A DNA stretch of 64,000 bases from Verrucomicrobiota bacterium. Its GTDB lineage: Bacteria; Verrucomicrobiota; Verrucomicrobiia; Chthoniobacterales; UBA10450. Below are positions 3,721-59,968 of the stretch, in pieces. Made by a program: the position numbers and the translations under genes. The stretch covers positions 17,831 to 81,830 of the forward strand of contig QHQA01000154.1 of assembly GCA_003219695.1 (NCBI GenBank). The letters are read 5' to 3'. The notes below the pieces were generated by a model, which saw nothing but the letters and a program-made list of their open reading frames with translations, was not told the DNA's origin and searched no databases. Every line of letters begins with the position of its first letter. The first letter of the stretch is position 1.

Positions 3721-3883
3721 TGTCATTCCGAGCGAAGCCGAAGGCGAAGTCGAGAATGCAGCGGCTGGGGAAGCCGCGATATAGACGTGAAGGCCAGAGG
3801 CTGAACGAACGGGAGTGAGCGAATCAAATCTCTCGAGGTTGGCAGTTTCAAACAGAGATGTCTCGACTCCGCTCGACATGACA
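3721..3883. repeat. Palindromic repeat family P1 (TGTCATTCCGAGCGAAG ... CTCGACTCCGCTCGACATGACA)
   Basis: Ends are inverted repeats; other copies near 9950, 28541, 43880, 49841. Confidence 0.8.
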
Positions 3884-5446: not shown

Positions 5447-5574
5447 GGGGAGCACAGGCTGCCAGCCTGTAGTTTGTGGCAGCTTGCCGCAAACATCTTT
5501 CCATCCCACGCGTGTAAAAACCGAGAGCGTCCGGCAAGCTGCCGGACGCGACAGGCTGGCAGTCTGTGCTCCCC
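5447..5574. repeat. Palindromic element family P5 inside dnaE2, copy 1
   Basis: GGGGAGCACAGGCTGCCAGCCTGTAG ... GACAGGCTGGCAGTCTGTGCTCCCC; encodes GSTGCQPVVCGSLPQ...RQAAGRDRLAVCAPQKAE. Confidence 0.9.
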
Positions 5575-7804
5575 AGAAGGCAGAAAACCGCGCGCGATTT
5601 CTGATCGATGCCTTTAGTCGCGAAGATGTTTTTGTTGAGCTCCAGAGGCATTTCATTCGCGGCGAGGAACGGATCAATCGCGAATTGATCGATCTTGCGC
5701 GCGCGTATCGGTTACCGCTTCTCGCCACCAACGGCGTGCAATATGCCAAGCCTTACGGACGCGAAGTGTTGGATGTTTTCACCTGCATTCGCGAGCACAC
5801 GCATCTGGATGCCGCAGGCAAATTGCTCACCCAAAATGCCGAGCGCCATTTGAAGAGCGATCGGCAAATGCGAGAAATTTTCGCGGATTTGCCGGAAGCG
5901 ATCGAAAACACATCACGCCTGGGCGAGCAGCTCACGTTTTCGCTGGAGAATCTCGGTTACGAATTTCCATCGTATCCGGTGCCGGCCGGTCACTCGATGG
6001 ATTCGTTTTTGCGCACCATTGTCTGGTTCGGCGCGCAACAGCGTTACGCGGCGATCAGCGCGAAGGTGAAACGCCAGATCGAGGAAGAACTCGCGCTGAT
6101 AATCAAGCTCGGTTTCCCGGGATATTTCCTGATCGTGTGGGACATCGTCAATTTCTGTCGCGAACACAACGTCATGGTCCAGGGCCGTGGCAGCGCCGCC
6201 AATAGCGCGGTTTGTTATTGCCTGGGGATCACGCCGGTGGATCCGGTGGAAAATCATCTGGTTTTCGAACGTTTCCTCAACGAGAGCCGCAAAGGCTGGC
6301 CCGATATCGATCTCGATCTTCCCAGCGGCGACCGTCGCGAAGCGGTGATCCAGGAAATTTATCGCCGGTACGGAAAACACGGCGCGGCCATGACCGCAAA
6401 CGTGATCACCTATCGCGGGCGCAGCGCGGCGCGCGAGATGGGTAAAGCGCTCAATTTTTCGCCGAGCATCATCGATCAGTTCTCGCATCTGTTTGCCAGC
6501 GGCGATTTCCCGCACACGCTCGAGCTCGAATCGCAGATTGAGCAGGCAGGTTTGCCGAAAGCGCATCCGCGGATGCCGGCCTTCATCAGGCTGTATCACG
6601 CTATTTACGGCTTGCCGCGGCACCTTGGCCAACATTCCGGCGGCATGATCATCTGCCAGAACAAACTGAGCTCCTTTGTTCCGCTGGAAAACGCCTCCAT
6701 GCCAGGTCGCGTAGTCGCGCAATGGGACAAGGACGATTGCGAAGATCTCGGCATCGTGAAAGTGGACTTGTTAGGCCTCGGCATGATGTCCGTAATGCAG
6801 GACGCACTGGAGCTTTGCCACGAGCGCGGCCGGCCTCTCGATCTCGCGCACATTCCAAAGAACGACGAGAAAACTTTCGAGATCATGCAACACGCCGACA
6901 CCATTGGCGTGTTTCAAATCGAAAGCCGCGCACAAATGGCGACGTTACCGCGAATGAAACCGAAATGTTTTTATGACGTGGTGATCGAGGTGGCGATCAT
7001 CCGGCCGGGACCGATTCAGGGCGACATGGTGCATCCCTATCTTGCGCGGCGGGCAAAACGCGAACCGGTGACATATTTCGACGATCGCTTAAAGCCGGTG
7101 CTCGAACGCACGCTCGGAGTGCCGTTGTTCCAGGAACAAATGCTCAAGATCGCCATGGTGATGGCGGATTTTTCCGGTGATCAAGCCGAGGAATTGCGAC
7201 GCGCGTTGAGTTTTCATCGTTCGGAAGAGCGGATGAACAAAGTCTGCGCGAAAATGCGTGCGGCGATGGAACGCAAAGGTGTCGCGCCCGACAAGATCGA
7301 AAAAATCATTCAATCGATCTCGTCCTTTGCGCTTTACGGCTTTCCCGAATCGCACGCGATCAGTTTCGCCATTCTCGCCTACGGGAGCGCATATTTAAAA
7401 GTGCATCGCGCGCAGGAGTTTTACGTCAGCCTACTGAACAATCAGCCGATGGGTTTTTACACGCCGGCGACGATTGTGAAGGATGCGCAGCGGCACGGAG
7501 TGAAGATCAAGCCGGTTTGCGTCGCGCAATCCCAGTGGCGCTGCACAGTGGTCGATGACAACACAATCCGCCTCGGCTTTTGCGTCGTGAACGGATTACG
7601 CCAAGAGCATGCCGAAGAACTCGTCAGGCAACGACAAGAGCGACCATTCGAGTCGCTCGACGATTTCAAGCGGCGCGTCCCGCTCTCGAAAGATGAATTG
7701 CGTAGTTTGGCGGAACTCGGCGCGCTCAATTGTTTTGCTGAACATCGCCGCGCGGCCATGTGGGACGTGGAAGAAACGCTCCACGATGATTTGCTGGATC
7801 GTCT

Positions 7805-7935
7805 GGGGAGCACAGGCTGCCAGCCTGTAGCGTCCGGCAGCTTGCCGGACGCATTGGAAGATGTTCCCATGCGTGGAATGGAAAGAGGTTTGCGGCAGGC
7901 TGCCGCAAACAACAGGCTGGCAGCCTGTGCTCCCC
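7805..7935. repeat. Palindromic element family P5 inside dnaE2, copy 2
   Basis: GGGGAGCACAGGCTGCCAGCCTGTAGCG ... ACAGGCTGGCAGCCTGTGCTCCCC; encodes GSTGCQPVASGSLPDALED...RQAAANNRLAACAPQKAE in the same frame as copy 1. Confidence 0.9.
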
Positions 7936-8377
7936 AGAAAGCGGAATCCCCCCTCCCACCAATGACCTTACCCGAGCGCGTGAAAGCAGATTACGAAACA
8001 ATGAACCTGACCACCGGACCGCATCCGATGAAATTGTTGCGCGCAAATTTGCCGACTATTTGGCGTGCGATCGATCTCGTTCACGCGCGCCACGGTTCGA
8101 CCATTCAAATCGCCGGCAACGTGATTTGCCGCCAGCGTCCGGGCACAGCGAAAGGATTTGTCTTTGTCAGCCTCGAAGACGAGACCGGCGTCTCAAACGC
8201 AATTGTCGAGCCTGATTTGTTTGAACGCTTCCGCCTCGTGATCACAGAAGAAGATTTTCTTTTGATCGAAGGCGAAGTTCAAAATTCCGACAACGTCGTT
8301 TTGATCAAAGCCCGCCAGATCAAACCCCTCGCGCATGAGCAACTCATCGGGAGTGAGTCGCACGATTTTCGCTGATC

Positions 8378-14618: not shown

Positions 14619-14654
14619 GGCGTTATAGCGTTAAAGCGTTGAAGCGTTGAACCG

Positions 14655-17270: not shown

Positions 17271-17312
17271 GTGGGCGCTAATGAGTTGCTAACCACGAAC
17301 GACTATCAATGC

Positions 17313-17432
17313 CGAAATCCGAATGACAAATGACGAAGCTCGAATGACGAAAAAGGGATGAAAGCCTTCATCTCTGTTCGGGTTTCGTCATTAGGATTTC
17401 CTTCGTCATTCGACATTCGTGCTTCGTCATTG
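17313..17432. repeat. Palindromic repeat family P2
   Basis: cgaaatccgaatgacaaatgacgaagctcgaatgacgaa ... cgtcattaggatttccttcgtcattcgacattcgtgcttcgtcatt. Confidence 0.8.
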
Positions 17433-28540: not shown

Positions 28541-28623
28541 GTCATGTCGAGCGAAGTCGAGACATCCCGCGGCGGTACCTGAGAGCTGTGCCGCGGGATT
28601 CCTCGACTCCGCTCGGAATGACG
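28541..28623. repeat. Palindromic repeat family P1 between lysM and ftsW
   Basis: gtcatgtcgagcgaagtcgagacatcccgcggc...gccgcgggattcctcgactccgctcggaatgac. Confidence 0.8.
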
Positions 28624-35271: not shown

Positions 35272-36480
35272 ATGGCGAACAACAACTTGATGGTTGGTCT
35301 TGAGATTGGCACCTCGAAAATCTGCGTGGTTGTCGGCGAAGGCCGCACCGATGGCACGCTCAAAATCCTCGGGGTCGGCCAGGCGCCATCGCGCGGCGTC
35401 CGCAAAGGGGAGATCGTCGATTTTGAAACTGCCATGAAATGCGTGCACGAAGCGGTGGTCGATGCAGAACAGAAAAGCGATGTCATGATCCGGAGCGTTT
35501 ACGTTGCCGTCGCCGGATCGCATCTGCAAAGTTTTAACAATCGCGGATGCGTCATTCTTCCCGAGGACCGCGATGAAATTGATGAGCAGGATGTCGAAGA
35601 CGTAAAAATCAATGCGCGCGAGGTGAGCATTCCAGCGCAGAACGCATTCCTTCATTCTCTCATTCAACATTATCACGTCGATGGGCAAGAGGGCGTGCTG
35701 AGTCCGGCGGGCATGTTCGGCCAAAAACTGGAAGCCGATTTTCACATCATTCACGGTGTGCGCACGCGCATTCAAAACACGATTCGATGTGTGAAGGAAC
35801 TGCCGCTGGACGTGGAAGATGTTGTTTTCAGCGGGCTGGCCTCTGCGCAGGTGGTGCTCACGCAGCATCAAAAGGATCTCGGCGCGCTGGTAATCGATAT
35901 GGGCGGCGGCACCACCGATTATGTCTTGTACGCAGACGGCGCGGTGAGACAAAGCGGTTGCCTCGCCGTGGGCGGAGACCACATCACCAACGATATCTCC
36001 ATGGGTCTGCGCATCCCGATGGCGCGCGCGGAGAAACTAAAGATCGAAGAGGGCAGCTGCATCCTCGGCAATTGTCTCCCGGGCGAAATGATTTTGCTCA
36101 AGGACGATTCCGGTTTTGCCGGTAAAGAGATCGAGCGTGAGACGCTGAACACGATCATTTACCTGCGACTGCGCGAAGCGCTCGAGCTGCTCAAACGCAG
36201 GCTGGACGAGGAAACGTATCTCAACTATGTCGGCGCTGGCATTTTCATCACTGGCGGATGCAGTCTTCTCAATGGCATCGATCATCTCGCCTCGGAGATT
36301 TTCGAACTGCCTGCATACCTGGCGCACGCGCAGAGCACGTCGGGCATCACCTCTGCGGTGGAAAACCCTCAGTTCGCCACAGTGATCGGCTTGGTCAAGT
36401 TCGCGCAGGTGATGCACTCGGATCGGCCGCCACGCGGCTTGGGCCGCATCTTTGGAAAGCTTTTAGGCGGAATGCGATGA
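35272..36480 (+). CDS. ftsA: Cell division protein FtsA
   Basis: VGLEIGTSKICVVVGEG, LGALVIDMGGGTTDYVLYADGAV, ITGGCSLLNGIDHLASEIFELPA. Confidence 0.95.
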   Translation: MANNNLMVGLEIGTSKICVVVGEGRTDGTLKILGVGQAPSRGVRKGEIVDFETAMKCVHEAVVDAEQKSDVMIRSVYVAVAGSHLQSFNNRGCVILPEDRDEIDEQDVEDVKINAREVSIPAQNAFLHSLIQHYHVDGQEGVLSPAGMFGQKLEADFHIIHGVRTRIQNTIRCVKELPLDVEDVVFSGLASAQVVLTQHQKDLGALVIDMGGGTTDYVLYADGAVRQSGCLAVGGDHITNDISMGLRIPMARAEKLKIEEGSCILGNCLPGEMILLKDDSGFAGKEIERETLNTIIYLRLREALELLKRRLDEETYLNYVGAGIFITGGCSLLNGIDHLASEIFELPAYLAHAQSTSGITSAVENPQFATVIGLVKFAQVMHSDRPPRGLGRIFGKLLGGMR

Positions 36481-36845
36481 AGGCGAAGCGCCAAGCCCCA
36501 ACATCCAAGCTCCAGAGAAATTCCAAGCATCAACATCCGAAAAGCGCAAAATCACGCCGCGTGGGCTTTGAGTATTCGGACGCTGCTGACAAAACATGGG
36601 TTTTAAAAGAAGAGAGTCCAGACAGAGAACAAGCACCTAAACATCCATTCGATTTAGAAGAGCGCACGGCGCGGTTTGGCGAAACAATGGTGCGCTTTTC
36701 GAGAAGCTCCAACGTCCAGAATAATATCAGGAGATCAAGACGTGGTGGGCCAATGATTTGGAAATTTGGGCTTCGCGATTCTCTGGATGTTGGAGATTGG
36801 AGCTTGGTGGTTAGTAATCGCAGTAGCAGTAACACAGCGCGCTAA
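36477..36845 (+). pseudogene. Remnant of four-helix-bundle (23S rRNA intervening-sequence protein family) gene within P3 inverted-repeat element
   Basis: HPFDLEERTARFGETMVRFSRS resembles the N-terminus of PF05635-type four-helix-bundle proteins; flanks are repeat-derived (SKLQRNSKHQHP / WKFGLRDSLDVGDWSLVV). Confidence 0.6.
36485..36818. mobile_element. Putative degenerate element with P3 terminal inverted repeats (CCAAGCTCCA...AGAGAA / TTCTCTGGATGTTGGAGATTGGAGCTTGG)
   Basis: Left arm ccaagccccaacatccaagctccagagaaattcc, right arm gattctctggatgttggagattggagcttggtgg; arms also present at 52496-52618. Confidence 0.55.
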
Positions 36846-36857
36846 AGAAGTAAGAAC

Positions 36858-38258
36858 ATGATTCAGCTTAATAAAAATTACACTCTCCCTGATCGTTTGG
36901 CAGACTTTATTCCGATAAAAATTGTAAGCGTCGGCGGCGCCGGGTTGAATGCGCTCGACCGCATCGTGCTCGATGGCCTCGAGAGAGCGGACGTGGTTGC
37001 AATCAATACTGACGTGCAATCCCTCACCAGTGCCGTAGCACCCCATAAAGTACAGCTCGGGCGAAGTGTCACCCGCGGTTTGGGCGCAGGAGGCGATCCG
37101 GAACTTGGTTATGAGGCAGCCGTGGAATCGGCTGAAGAAATTCGCCAGGCGCTCGCCGATGCGCGGGCGATTTTCGTTTGTGCCGGACTCGGTGGCGGCA
37201 CCGGCTCGGGTGCGACGCCCTACGTAGCGCAACTGGCCCGCGAAGCCGGCGCGCTGGTGATTGCTTTTGTCACTCTTCCATTCGCATTTGAGGGAAGACG
37301 CCGCAACGCGCAGGCGCGAGAGGCGCTGGCACGGCTCAACGAAGTTGTCCACGCGGTGATCTGTTTCGAGAACGATCGAATGGGCGAACTGACCCCGCCA
37401 CACGCCGGAATTCATCAAGCCTTTGCCATGGCCGATATCACGATCAGCCAGAGCGTCCGCTCGATCGTGAGCCTGATTCAGCGGCCGGGATTCATTCGCA
37501 TCGGTTTCGACGATTTACTTTCGGCGCTGCGCTCCCGCAACGGCCGCTGCTTGTTTGGCTATGGCGAATCCGATTCGGACAATCGCGCGCATGAGGCTCT
37601 GACGCAGGCGCTCAAAAATCCCCTAATGGATCGCGGCCGGATACTCTCGGATGCGACAAACGTGCTGGTGCAGGTGGCAGGCGGGCCTGGCATGACGCTC
37701 TCTGAGGTCGAAATCCTCATGCGGGAACTGTGCCGTCACGTGAGCGATCAAACGCAGATTCTCTTCGGCGCCGCCGTGGACGGACGACTGGGAGACCGAT
37801 TGAGCGTGACCATCATCAGTTCGCTCGCCGCGGAAGAGGAGTCAGTTTCAAGGCCTCGGGAGCCTGGCATATCAAGCAGCGCGTCAGCAGCACCGGCAGT
37901 TATGGAGCAGCACGAGCCTATTCAAGCAAAGATTGAGATCCAACCCGAAGAGATTGTCATCGAACCCGCGCCGCCCGAGGAAGACACTCCATTTGAAGAG
38001 CCGGCTATGGCCGAAGCGCCACCGGCCGCAATACCCCCGCAGGGCATACCGAAGCACGTCATGAGCAGGGCACCGGAGAAATCGTTTGCGGGAAACGAGG
38101 AAAAAGCACCGGCTGAGAAATCTGTTCAGGCGAAACAGGAAATCTTGCAGTTCGAACCGGTGACGCGCGGCCGCTTTGAAAAAAGCGAGCCGACCATCGT
38201 CGAAGGTGAAGACCTCGATGTGCCGACGTTTCTGCGAAAAAACATCAAGGTGAAGTAA
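36858..38258 (+). CDS. ftsZ: Cell division protein FtsZ
   Basis: IVSVGGAGLNALDRI, AGLGGGTGSGATPYVAQLAREAGALVIAFVTLPFAFEGRRR, C-terminal DVPTFLRKNIKVK. Confidence 0.93.
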   Translation: MIQLNKNYTLPDRLADFIPIKIVSVGGAGLNALDRIVLDGLERADVVAINTDVQSLTSAVAPHKVQLGRSVTRGLGAGGDPELGYEAAVESAEEIRQALADARAIFVCAGLGGGTGSGATPYVAQLAREAGALVIAFVTLPFAFEGRRRNAQAREALARLNEVVHAVICFENDRMGELTPPHAGIHQAFAMADITISQSVRSIVSLIQRPGFIRIGFDDLLSALRSRNGRCLFGYGESDSDNRAHEALTQALKNPLMDRGRILSDATNVLVQVAGGPGMTLSEVEILMRELCRHVSDQTQILFGAAVDGRLGDRLSVTIISSLAAEEESVSRPREPGISSSASAAPAVMEQHEPIQAKIEIQPEEIVIEPAPPEEDTPFEEPAMAEAPPAAIPPQGIPKHVMSRAPEKSFAGNEEKAPAEKSVQAKQEILQFEPVTRGRFEKSEPTIVEGEDLDVPTFLRKNIKVK

Positions 38259-52495: not shown

Positions 52496-52618
52496 GCTCG
52501 AAGCTCCAAGACCCAAGCTCCAACATCCAGAGAAATTTCAAAAACCAATGTTCAATCGCCCGTTTGGAGCTTGATATTGGAATTTCTCTGGAGCTTGGAT
52601 GTTGGAAGTTGGAATTTA
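52496..52618. repeat. Short P3 palindromic element (MITE-like)
   Basis: gaagctccaagacccaagctccaacatccagagaaatttc...gaatttctctggagcttggatgttggaagttgg. Confidence 0.75.
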
Positions 52619-53565: not shown

Positions 53566-53652
53566 AACGCTCAACGCCCAACTCCCAACACCGAATGCTC
53601 AACTATCTGAATTGGACGTTGGGGTGTTGGACGTTGAGCGTTGGGCGTTGAG
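53566..53652. repeat. Palindromic repeat family P4 (AACGCTCAACGCCCAACTCCCAACACC / GGTGTTGGACGTTGAGCGTTGGGCGTTGAG)
   Basis: Near-perfect inverted arms. Confidence 0.8.
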
Positions 53653-53656
53653 AATT

Positions 53657-54253
53657 CTATTGTCCCCAAGTCTTTCTTTGAAAGGAAACCCGGCCAGATC
53701 CCTTCTCGAATGCTTCAAAGTGCTCCGGGTTCTGCTGGTAAAATTTTTGGTGATACGCCTCGGCGGGATAAAATTTCGTCGCGGGCAAAATTTCAGTGAC
53801 GACCGGTTTTTTAAATTTCGCCGAGCGCGCCAGCTTTTCTTTTGATGCCTCGGCGATTTTTTTCTCCTCGGCGTTGCCGTAAAAAATCTCGGCGCGATAG
53901 CTCGGGCCGATATCGGTGAACTGGCCATCGGCCTGGGTGGGGTCGATCTGGCGCCAGTAGATGTCAAGCAATTGCTCATAGGAAATTTTCGCCGGGTCGT
54001 AGGTGATCTCGATCGACTCGCGATAATTGGTTTTTTCCGAGGAGACGAGCTCGTAAGTCGGATTTCGCTCGGTTCCGCCGCAATAACCTACTACTGTTTT
54101 GATGACCCCCGGCGCTTTGTCGAACGCTGGCTGAATGCACCAGAAACAGCCACCTGCGAAGATCGCGCTCCGCGTTTGATTCGGCGAGGAAGTTTGCGCA
54201 GAAACCAGGTTGGAAATTGAGAATAGTAGAACGCCCAGCAGGAGAGATTTCAT
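53657..54253 (-). CDS. msrA: Peptide-methionine (S)-S-oxide reductase MsrA
   Basis: SAIFAGGCFWCIQPAFDKAPGVIKTVVGYCGGTERNPTYELVSS, QIDPTQADGQFTDIGPSYRAEIFY; secretion signal at N-terminus. Confidence 0.95.
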   Translation of the reverse strand: MKSLLLGVLLFSISNLVSAQTSSPNQTRSAIFAGGCFWCIQPAFDKAPGVIKTVVGYCGGTERNPTYELVSSEKTNYRESIEITYDPAKISYEQLLDIYWRQIDPTQADGQFTDIGPSYRAEIFYGNAEEKKIAEASKEKLARSAKFKKPVVTEILPATKFYPAEAYHQKFYQQNPEHFEAFEKGSGRVSFQRKTWGQ

Positions 54254-59914: not shown

Positions 59915-59968
59915 GTTGCCGGCAGGGCTGCCGGCAACTACAGGCTGGCAGCCCTGTGCTCCCCAGAA
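59915..59968. repeat. Family P5 half-element
   Basis: ttgccggcagggctgccggcaactacaggctggcagccctgtgctcccc; right arm as in the dnaE2 copies. Confidence 0.75.

Follow-up and report, generated by a model that had tools for sequence, protein, structure and literature searches.

What occupies the space between ftsA and ftsZ in a verrucomicrobial genome in which a 377-nt insert separates these two genes? The locus lies in a 64,000-nt stretch of contig QHQA01000154.1 (Verrucomicrobiota bacterium, GCA_003219695.1), referred to here in its entirety as the window. A sequence-only reading had proposed that the insert is an inverted-repeat element holding the remnant of a four-helix-bundle gene of the 23S rRNA IVP family, possibly carried by a palindromic mobile unit. 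We consider it probable that the insert is a decayed member (subfamily P3) of a family of cassettes that parallel, at the level of mRNA, the intervening sequence (IVS) of rRNA, with cargo-less copies resembling miniature inverted-repeat transposable elements (MITEs). In the genomes searched, the IVP protein gene (PF05635/TIGR02436) is very often enclosed by mirror-image arrays of 7- to 8-nt repeats wedged between operon genes. The ftsA-ftsZ copy is best read as a P3 cassette from which most of the gene has been deleted.

The remnant open reading frame (ORF) spans positions 36477 to 36845 on the forward strand and encodes 122 amino acids: a repeat-coded N terminus, the start of an IVP gene, and then repeat-derived sequence. 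Its ATG at 36477 overlaps the ftsA stop codon as ATGA, and its translation runs MKAKRQAPTSKLQRNSKHQ...HPFDLEERTARFGETMVRFSRS before breaking down into the repeat-derived portion. By alignment to L224, L225, L228, and L232, HPFDLEERTARFGETMVRFSRS (36642 to 36707, forward strand) covers the opening portion of the four-helix-bundle domain (helix 1). Aligned to the intact protein from locus L224, the remnant scored 169 (shuffled maximum, 52) over residues 4 to 76, the repeat-coded N terminus included; scores against other P3 relatives were 133 to 157 for eight proteins and 99 for L227. Because homologues align through the arm-coded part as well, the remnant is a piece of an IVP gene, as had been proposed. 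Pfam and NCBIfam profile searches of the remnant ORF gave no match, since only the start of the domain (∼20 residues) is left, and the remnant remains below the curated cut-offs for PF05635 and TIGR02436. Intact L224 and L225 exceed both (37.8 and 46.9 bits against a PF05635 cut-off of 33.8; 56.0 and 62.6 against a TIGR02436 cut-off of 24). The family fold is a four-helix bundle that assembles into a pentameric ring; the predicted L224 monomer (predicted local distance difference test, 94.6) agrees with the bundle in consisting of four helices, with helix 1 at residues 6 to 22. Structure comparison of this predicted fold retrieved the S23-family entries 2RLD and 2GSC (template modeling [TM] score, about 0.8), followed by the Avd proteins of diversity-generating retroelements (4DWL and 8UBE; about 0.65). 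A weak profile match of an IVP protein to Avd was also obtained (E = 0.011), and no nuclease or recombinase fold was found in the predicted model by structure comparison.

The remnant is flanked by a left P3 arm, a heptamer array at 36485 to 36533 on the forward strand (inverted-repeat core, 36491 to 36519), and a right P3 arm at 36779 to 36812 on the reverse strand (core, 36779 to 36807). Over a stretch of 31 nt, the left arm and its counterpart in L188 are identical except at two positions. A repeat search paired 36486 to 36507 with 36784 to 36805 (22 nt, 86% complementary), while a gapped search paired CCAAGCCCCAACATCCAAGCTCCAGAGAA with TTCTCTGGATGTTGGAGATTGGAGCTTGG, the two cores, at a score of 16.5. 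This score equals the highest obtained when arms of matching geometry were placed at random in the window 1000 times, a value that is also the 99.9th percentile; taken alone, the inverted repeat is thus significant, not extreme, and suggestive only. The decisive point, over the arm score alone, is that the arm sequence recurs, and for this reason we judge the observation to be real. The sequence AAGCTCCAACATCCAGAGAA was found at seven genome sites with ≤3 mismatches (reversed-pattern control, 0 to 1) and, with ≤2 mismatches, in 11 relatives beyond the window's genome (control, 0). An internal arm-like fragment, AAGCTCCAACGTCCA (36704 to 36718, forward strand), was retrieved by the inverted-repeat search and as a pattern match with three mismatches. 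Located at the gene break, it would mark either a deletion or a second P3 unit. Rfam gave no match and PADLOC none.

Intact relatives show what the window copy probably once resembled. The sequence-only reading had taken intact genes consistently lacking P3 arms as the observation that would speak against it; instead, intact genes of the DLEERTARFGE type with P3 arms were found at L188, L196, L224 to L228, and L230 to L234. At L188, which is the same sequence as L224 (L196 is likewise paired with L225), the arms enclose an intact gene, MKHQAPTSKLQRS...RHPFDLEERTARFGEAIIRF.... Arms of the AAGCTCC type occur in 10 of the 11 verrucomicrobial relatives nearest to L224, a set that includes L224 itself. 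Among the P3 copies of relatives, most of which look cargo-less, the consensus arm reads AAGCTCC AAATTCC AAGCTCC AACATCC, followed by the tetranucleotide AGAG and roughly three further heptamers. The left arm opens with an in-frame ATG of type ATGAAGCTCCAA in most of the P3 cassettes examined and therefore appears to be translated. The repeat-coded start of the window ORF is thus a real subfamily feature.

The association of IVP genes with inverted arrays extends beyond P3. The window's genome holds 13 PF05635 loci. A search with exact P3 8-mers found no arms at these 13 genes, because each subfamily has its own repeat: an unbiased inverted-repeat search detected pairs around nearly all 13, each built from its own 7- or 8-nt tandem unit, and 11 of 13 passed a stricter random-placement test. 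We extended the comparison to an order-level set of 102 loci from this genome and its relatives (101 scorable), requiring an inverted-repeat score higher than any obtained from 300 random placements. At this threshold, 80 of 101 PF05635 loci were bracketed; among 322 control ORFs, drawn from the window and from relatives, a single one was. Autocorrelation at lags of 7, 14, and 21 nt was 0.345, 0.336, and 0.319 in upstream flanks and 0.324, 0.307, and 0.297 in downstream flanks, with a weaker 8-nt series also present; genes and distant flanks stayed at ∼0.22 to 0.28 at all lags. Elsewhere in the phylum, in further families and classes, the lag-7 value averaged 0.386, and Patescibacteria carry AATTTTC-type heptamer arms in a similar layout. 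Cassette anatomy thus evidently recurs across Verrucomicrobiota and in Patescibacteria.

Arm similarity climbs with protein identity (r = 0.59, with no value over 0.1 among 1000 permutations), an effect to which common ancestry contributes. AATGACG arms are carried by nearly all of the close L012 relatives whose arms could be scored, just as P3 arms are confined to one subfamily; each IVP subfamily evidently has its own repeat. The earlier suggestion that this protein family is associated with a palindromic unit thus stands, with the correction that P3 arms belong to a single subfamily, the others having heptamers of their own. Strict recognition of one heptamer per protein was also considered and is weakened as an explanation, as arms at one junction differ among species with similar proteins.

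Placement and orientation follow a consistent pattern. Among the 77 order-level cassettes with both neighbors known, with orientation assigned by ORF selection, 62 have same-direction neighbors on both sides and two are antisense to both (61 and 2 in a separate count). The window background of adjacent ORF pairs is 22 '++', 14 '--', 10 '-+', and 9 '+-'. The left arm begins a median of 7 nt past the upstream stop codon, and the right arm extends to roughly the downstream start codon. The window copy has the same layout as other cassettes, tight between stop and start. Many junctions are common to several species (12 loci at an sdhA-sdhB-like junction, 10 at a moxR-like junction, and 8 at a second sdh-like junction, with gapA-pgk-like and ABC-transporter-like junctions also shared); these gene names are our own reading of terminal peptides, made without database search. 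Within same-junction groups the heptamers differ, and each left arm matches its own right arm. In two diverse subfamilies, own arms fit better than swapped arms (20.7 versus 11.6 and 20.1 versus 10.7; 0 of 2000 permutations). Median dN/dS values of 0.05 to 0.09 among usable pairs, many pairs being saturated at silent sites, indicate that the IVP protein is under purifying selection. Given the operon junctions conserved across species, we dropped the proposal that all cassettes are freely mobile.

Gene-bearing copies are outnumbered by cargo-less derivatives. The sequence-only reading had noticed the same arms without cargo near 52496 to 52618, and we find there a cargo-less P3 palindrome at 52499 to 52613 (predicted RNA fold, z = −6.0), whose neighbors are a sulfotransferase-like gene and a gene for a class IV aminotransferase. 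Most P3 copies in relatives resemble such palindromes, at about 130 nt. Further window palindromes match arms that enclose IVP genes at other places in this genome: three of the AATGACG type (L012), one AACGCCC (L010), and an L013-type fragment, besides the P3 copy. The three AATGACG palindromes (1565 to 1704, 17307 to 17431, and 60869 to 61013) lack cargo, their cognate gene being L012. This pattern has 39 matches genome-wide and none in the reversed control, and only one IVP gene has such arms. Many AATGACG copies have sharp ends (AATGACGAA...TTCGTCATT) and a length of about 110 to 140 nt; the terminal inverted repeats with sharp ends expected of an insertion sequence or MITE are thus present in many cargo-less copies.

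Upon anatomy, placement, sense orientation, subfamily-specific repeats, arm complementarity, selection, and cargo-less derivatives, all of which are established at the level of sequence, we base the following model. A cassette, consisting of paired inverted 7- to 8-nt tandem arrays around a gene for a four-helix-bundle protein (PF05635/TIGR02436), would be transcribed by its host operon. In the mRNA the arms would pair into a long hairpin with the IVP ORF in the loop, by analogy with the 23S rRNA IVS, and RNase III may cut the stem, as in the Coxiella 23S IVS. The Avd-related protein would act on the hairpin or on a DNA form of it. Cassettes would spread rarely, and internal deletions would yield the MITE-like palindromes. 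The ftsA-ftsZ copy would now be inert, except possibly as an mRNA hairpin.

The closest known counterparts of these cassettes are the 23S rRNA IVSs of Leptospira and Coxiella. In these IVSs, as in the window copy and its intact relatives, terminal inverted repeats enclose an ORF of the S23p/IVP family. The Coxiella IVS, which is excised by RNase III, has terminal repeats of 28 bp and, ahead of its S23p ORF on the upstream side, tandem GACAGAT heptamers (PMC4990558); these heptamers probably form the best bridge from rRNA elements to the present cassettes. Unlike rRNA IVSs, the cassettes lie between protein genes of operons, have arms made of long 7- to 8-nt arrays, and leave scattered cargo-less copies. 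We therefore file them with IVS/IVP elements but outside the rRNA IVSs, because the window copy lies between ftsA and ftsZ and is not inserted in a 23S rRNA helix. Other heptamer arrays, namely, the cyanobacterial short tandemly repeated repetitive (STRR) sequences and the TAACTGA arrays of Beggiatoaceae (PMC4679880), share the 7-nt tandem units, mostly intergenic location, and family specificity; unlike the cassettes they are described as direct arrays. The TAACTGA paper makes no mention of S23 or four-helix-bundle genes (PMC4679880). Searches of open-access literature, with few subscription papers or preprints included, turned up no account of IVP genes set between inverted heptamer arrays where operon genes meet.

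Several results weigh against the mRNA-level model. Taken as a whole, the decayed cassette is predicted to form an RNA fold of no more than moderate stability (z = −2.3). Of the 101 scorable loci, 21 fall under the threshold, some of them one-armed, and four less diverged subfamilies show no significant difference between own and swapped arms. No consistent target-site duplication was seen by eye in the flanks of AATGACG copies, nor was a clean insertion event with target duplication found in copy flanks or at an ilvE-like gap; the spacer of the ilvE-like gene, examined for empty sites, varies freely among relatives. The claim of mobility is accordingly retained in part. Scattered copies and presence/absence differences support it, the chemistry of movement being conjectural, whereas many cassettes are fixed at operon junctions and no transposition event with clean ends was recovered.

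The sharp ends of the AATGACG copies, the large cargo-less excess, and the subfamily-specific arms would also fit a mobile element acting at the DNA level. The protein would bind the arrays as DNA hairpins and mobilize its own cassette and the cargo-less palindromes in trans, as REP-associated tyrosine transposases (RAYTs) do for repetitive extragenic palindromes (REPs), with the RNA hairpin a by-product. REP/RAYT and MITE systems do resemble the present case in having many short palindromes akin to the ends of rarer gene-bearing copies. However, the cassettes lack an HUH (Y1) or DDE transposase, the linked gene instead encoding a four-helix bundle with no known catalytic site, and their arms are tandem arrays that vary by subfamily. 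With no nuclease or recombinase fold in the protein, a strong sense bias, and no consistent target duplication, we regard this explanation as rather unlikely. Alternatively, the cassette could serve the host as a domesticated regulator, in which an mRNA hairpin and its binding protein set expression between cotranscribed genes. Such a module agrees with the sharing of one junction by as many as 12 loci, with sense orientation, and with purifying selection, but copy number in the genus ranges from 0 to 13, relatives lack the ftsA-ftsZ copy, which is itself decayed, and cargo-less copies are scattered; we find it unlikely that the cassette is host serving rather than selfish.

A third possibility, that a reverse transcriptase copies the cassette RNA with the help of an Avd-like protein, draws on the structural likeness to Avd noted above and on sense orientation. 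Unlike diversity-generating retroelements, however, the cassettes have no reverse transcriptase, template, or variable repeat. No RVT_1 match was found in the window's genome (93% complete, with 13 IVP loci) or in 40 of the 58 genomes searched; since the window's genome has none, a reverse transcriptase is seemingly not needed, and this route is highly improbable. Finally, a coincidence, with unrelated host palindromes lying beside IVP genes and the remnant resembling such a gene by chance, has a negligible probability: these genomes do hold many palindromic repeat families and the window repeat alone reaches only the 99.9th percentile, but bracketing at 80/101 versus 1/322, homology of the window ORF to intact P3 proteins through the arm-coded part, and the same arrangement across the phylum and in Patescibacteria all contradict it.

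A broader form of the mRNA-level model can be put forward tentatively. The IVP/S23 family might constitute the protein half of general bacterial mRNA intervening cassettes, in which a ring-forming protein reads the spacing of 7- to 8-nt arrays, rather than their exact sequence, in a hairpin around its own gene. Such a protein would keep the arms complementary, let the cassette persist in essential operons, and move cargo-less palindromes in trans; the rRNA IVS would be a special case and Avd a co-opted relative. PF05635/TIGR02436 proteins are common in the genomes searched and widely annotated, and we know of no function for them. The consistent gene-flanking architecture, with a repeat tied to the subfamily, makes hairpin binding, mRNA cutting, and palindrome movement testable. 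It also accounts for several short-palindrome families of these genomes, which it makes derivatives of IVP cassettes. For 23S rRNA IVSs, both origin and role are described as unclear decades after their discovery (PMC4990558).

The neighbors of the window copy are ftsA at 35272 to 36480 (forward strand; Pfam FtsA, 5.2e−35; TGA stop at 36478 to 36480, overlapping the ATG of the remnant ORF) and ftsZ at 36858 to 38258 (forward strand; Tubulin, 1e−41; FtsZ_C, 2.1e−19); the identity of ftsQ in the window was likewise confirmed. Empty sites between ftsA and ftsZ, which the sequence-only reading had suggested looking for, do exist: among 19 relatives with a readable junction, none holds this cassette, and 9 have a bare gap of roughly 15 to 60 nt. 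Most others hold unrelated palindromes, and what may be a vestige of a P3 right end is seen at the G023 junction. In G003, G011, G013, and G022 (L144, L157, L165, and L141), the gap is occupied by a different repeat, GTAGGGCGCGACCGCCGG...CGGCGGTCTGTCC. As another repeat is found at the same gap, the ftsA-ftsZ junction is a recurrent landing place.

Additional repeats were recorded along the way. L188, L196, and L197 are P3-related IVP cassettes at one common genomic site in three genera; their heptamers differ in both arms (AACATCC, AAACACC, and AAATCCC), and the IVP gene of L197 is partly duplicated besides. In the window, AACGCTC/AACGCCC heptamer arrays lie at 53566 to 53660 and 63648 to 63690, the first matching the arms of L010, and a one-sided GCGTTAAAGCGTTGAA array at a gene start (14627 to 14652) matches the 8-nt arms of L013. 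A palindrome family, TCATTCCGAGCGAAG...CTCGGAATGA, is present at 3723 to 3882, 28541 to 28622, 43093 to 43952, and 49843 to 49914, and similar sequence occurs in several relatives between ftsA and ftsZ as well as in the loop of one P3 copy, L119. Palindromes of the CAGGCTGCCAGCCTG type are found at 5447 to 5585, 7802 to 7946, and 59926 to 59953, with copies up to 96% complementary.
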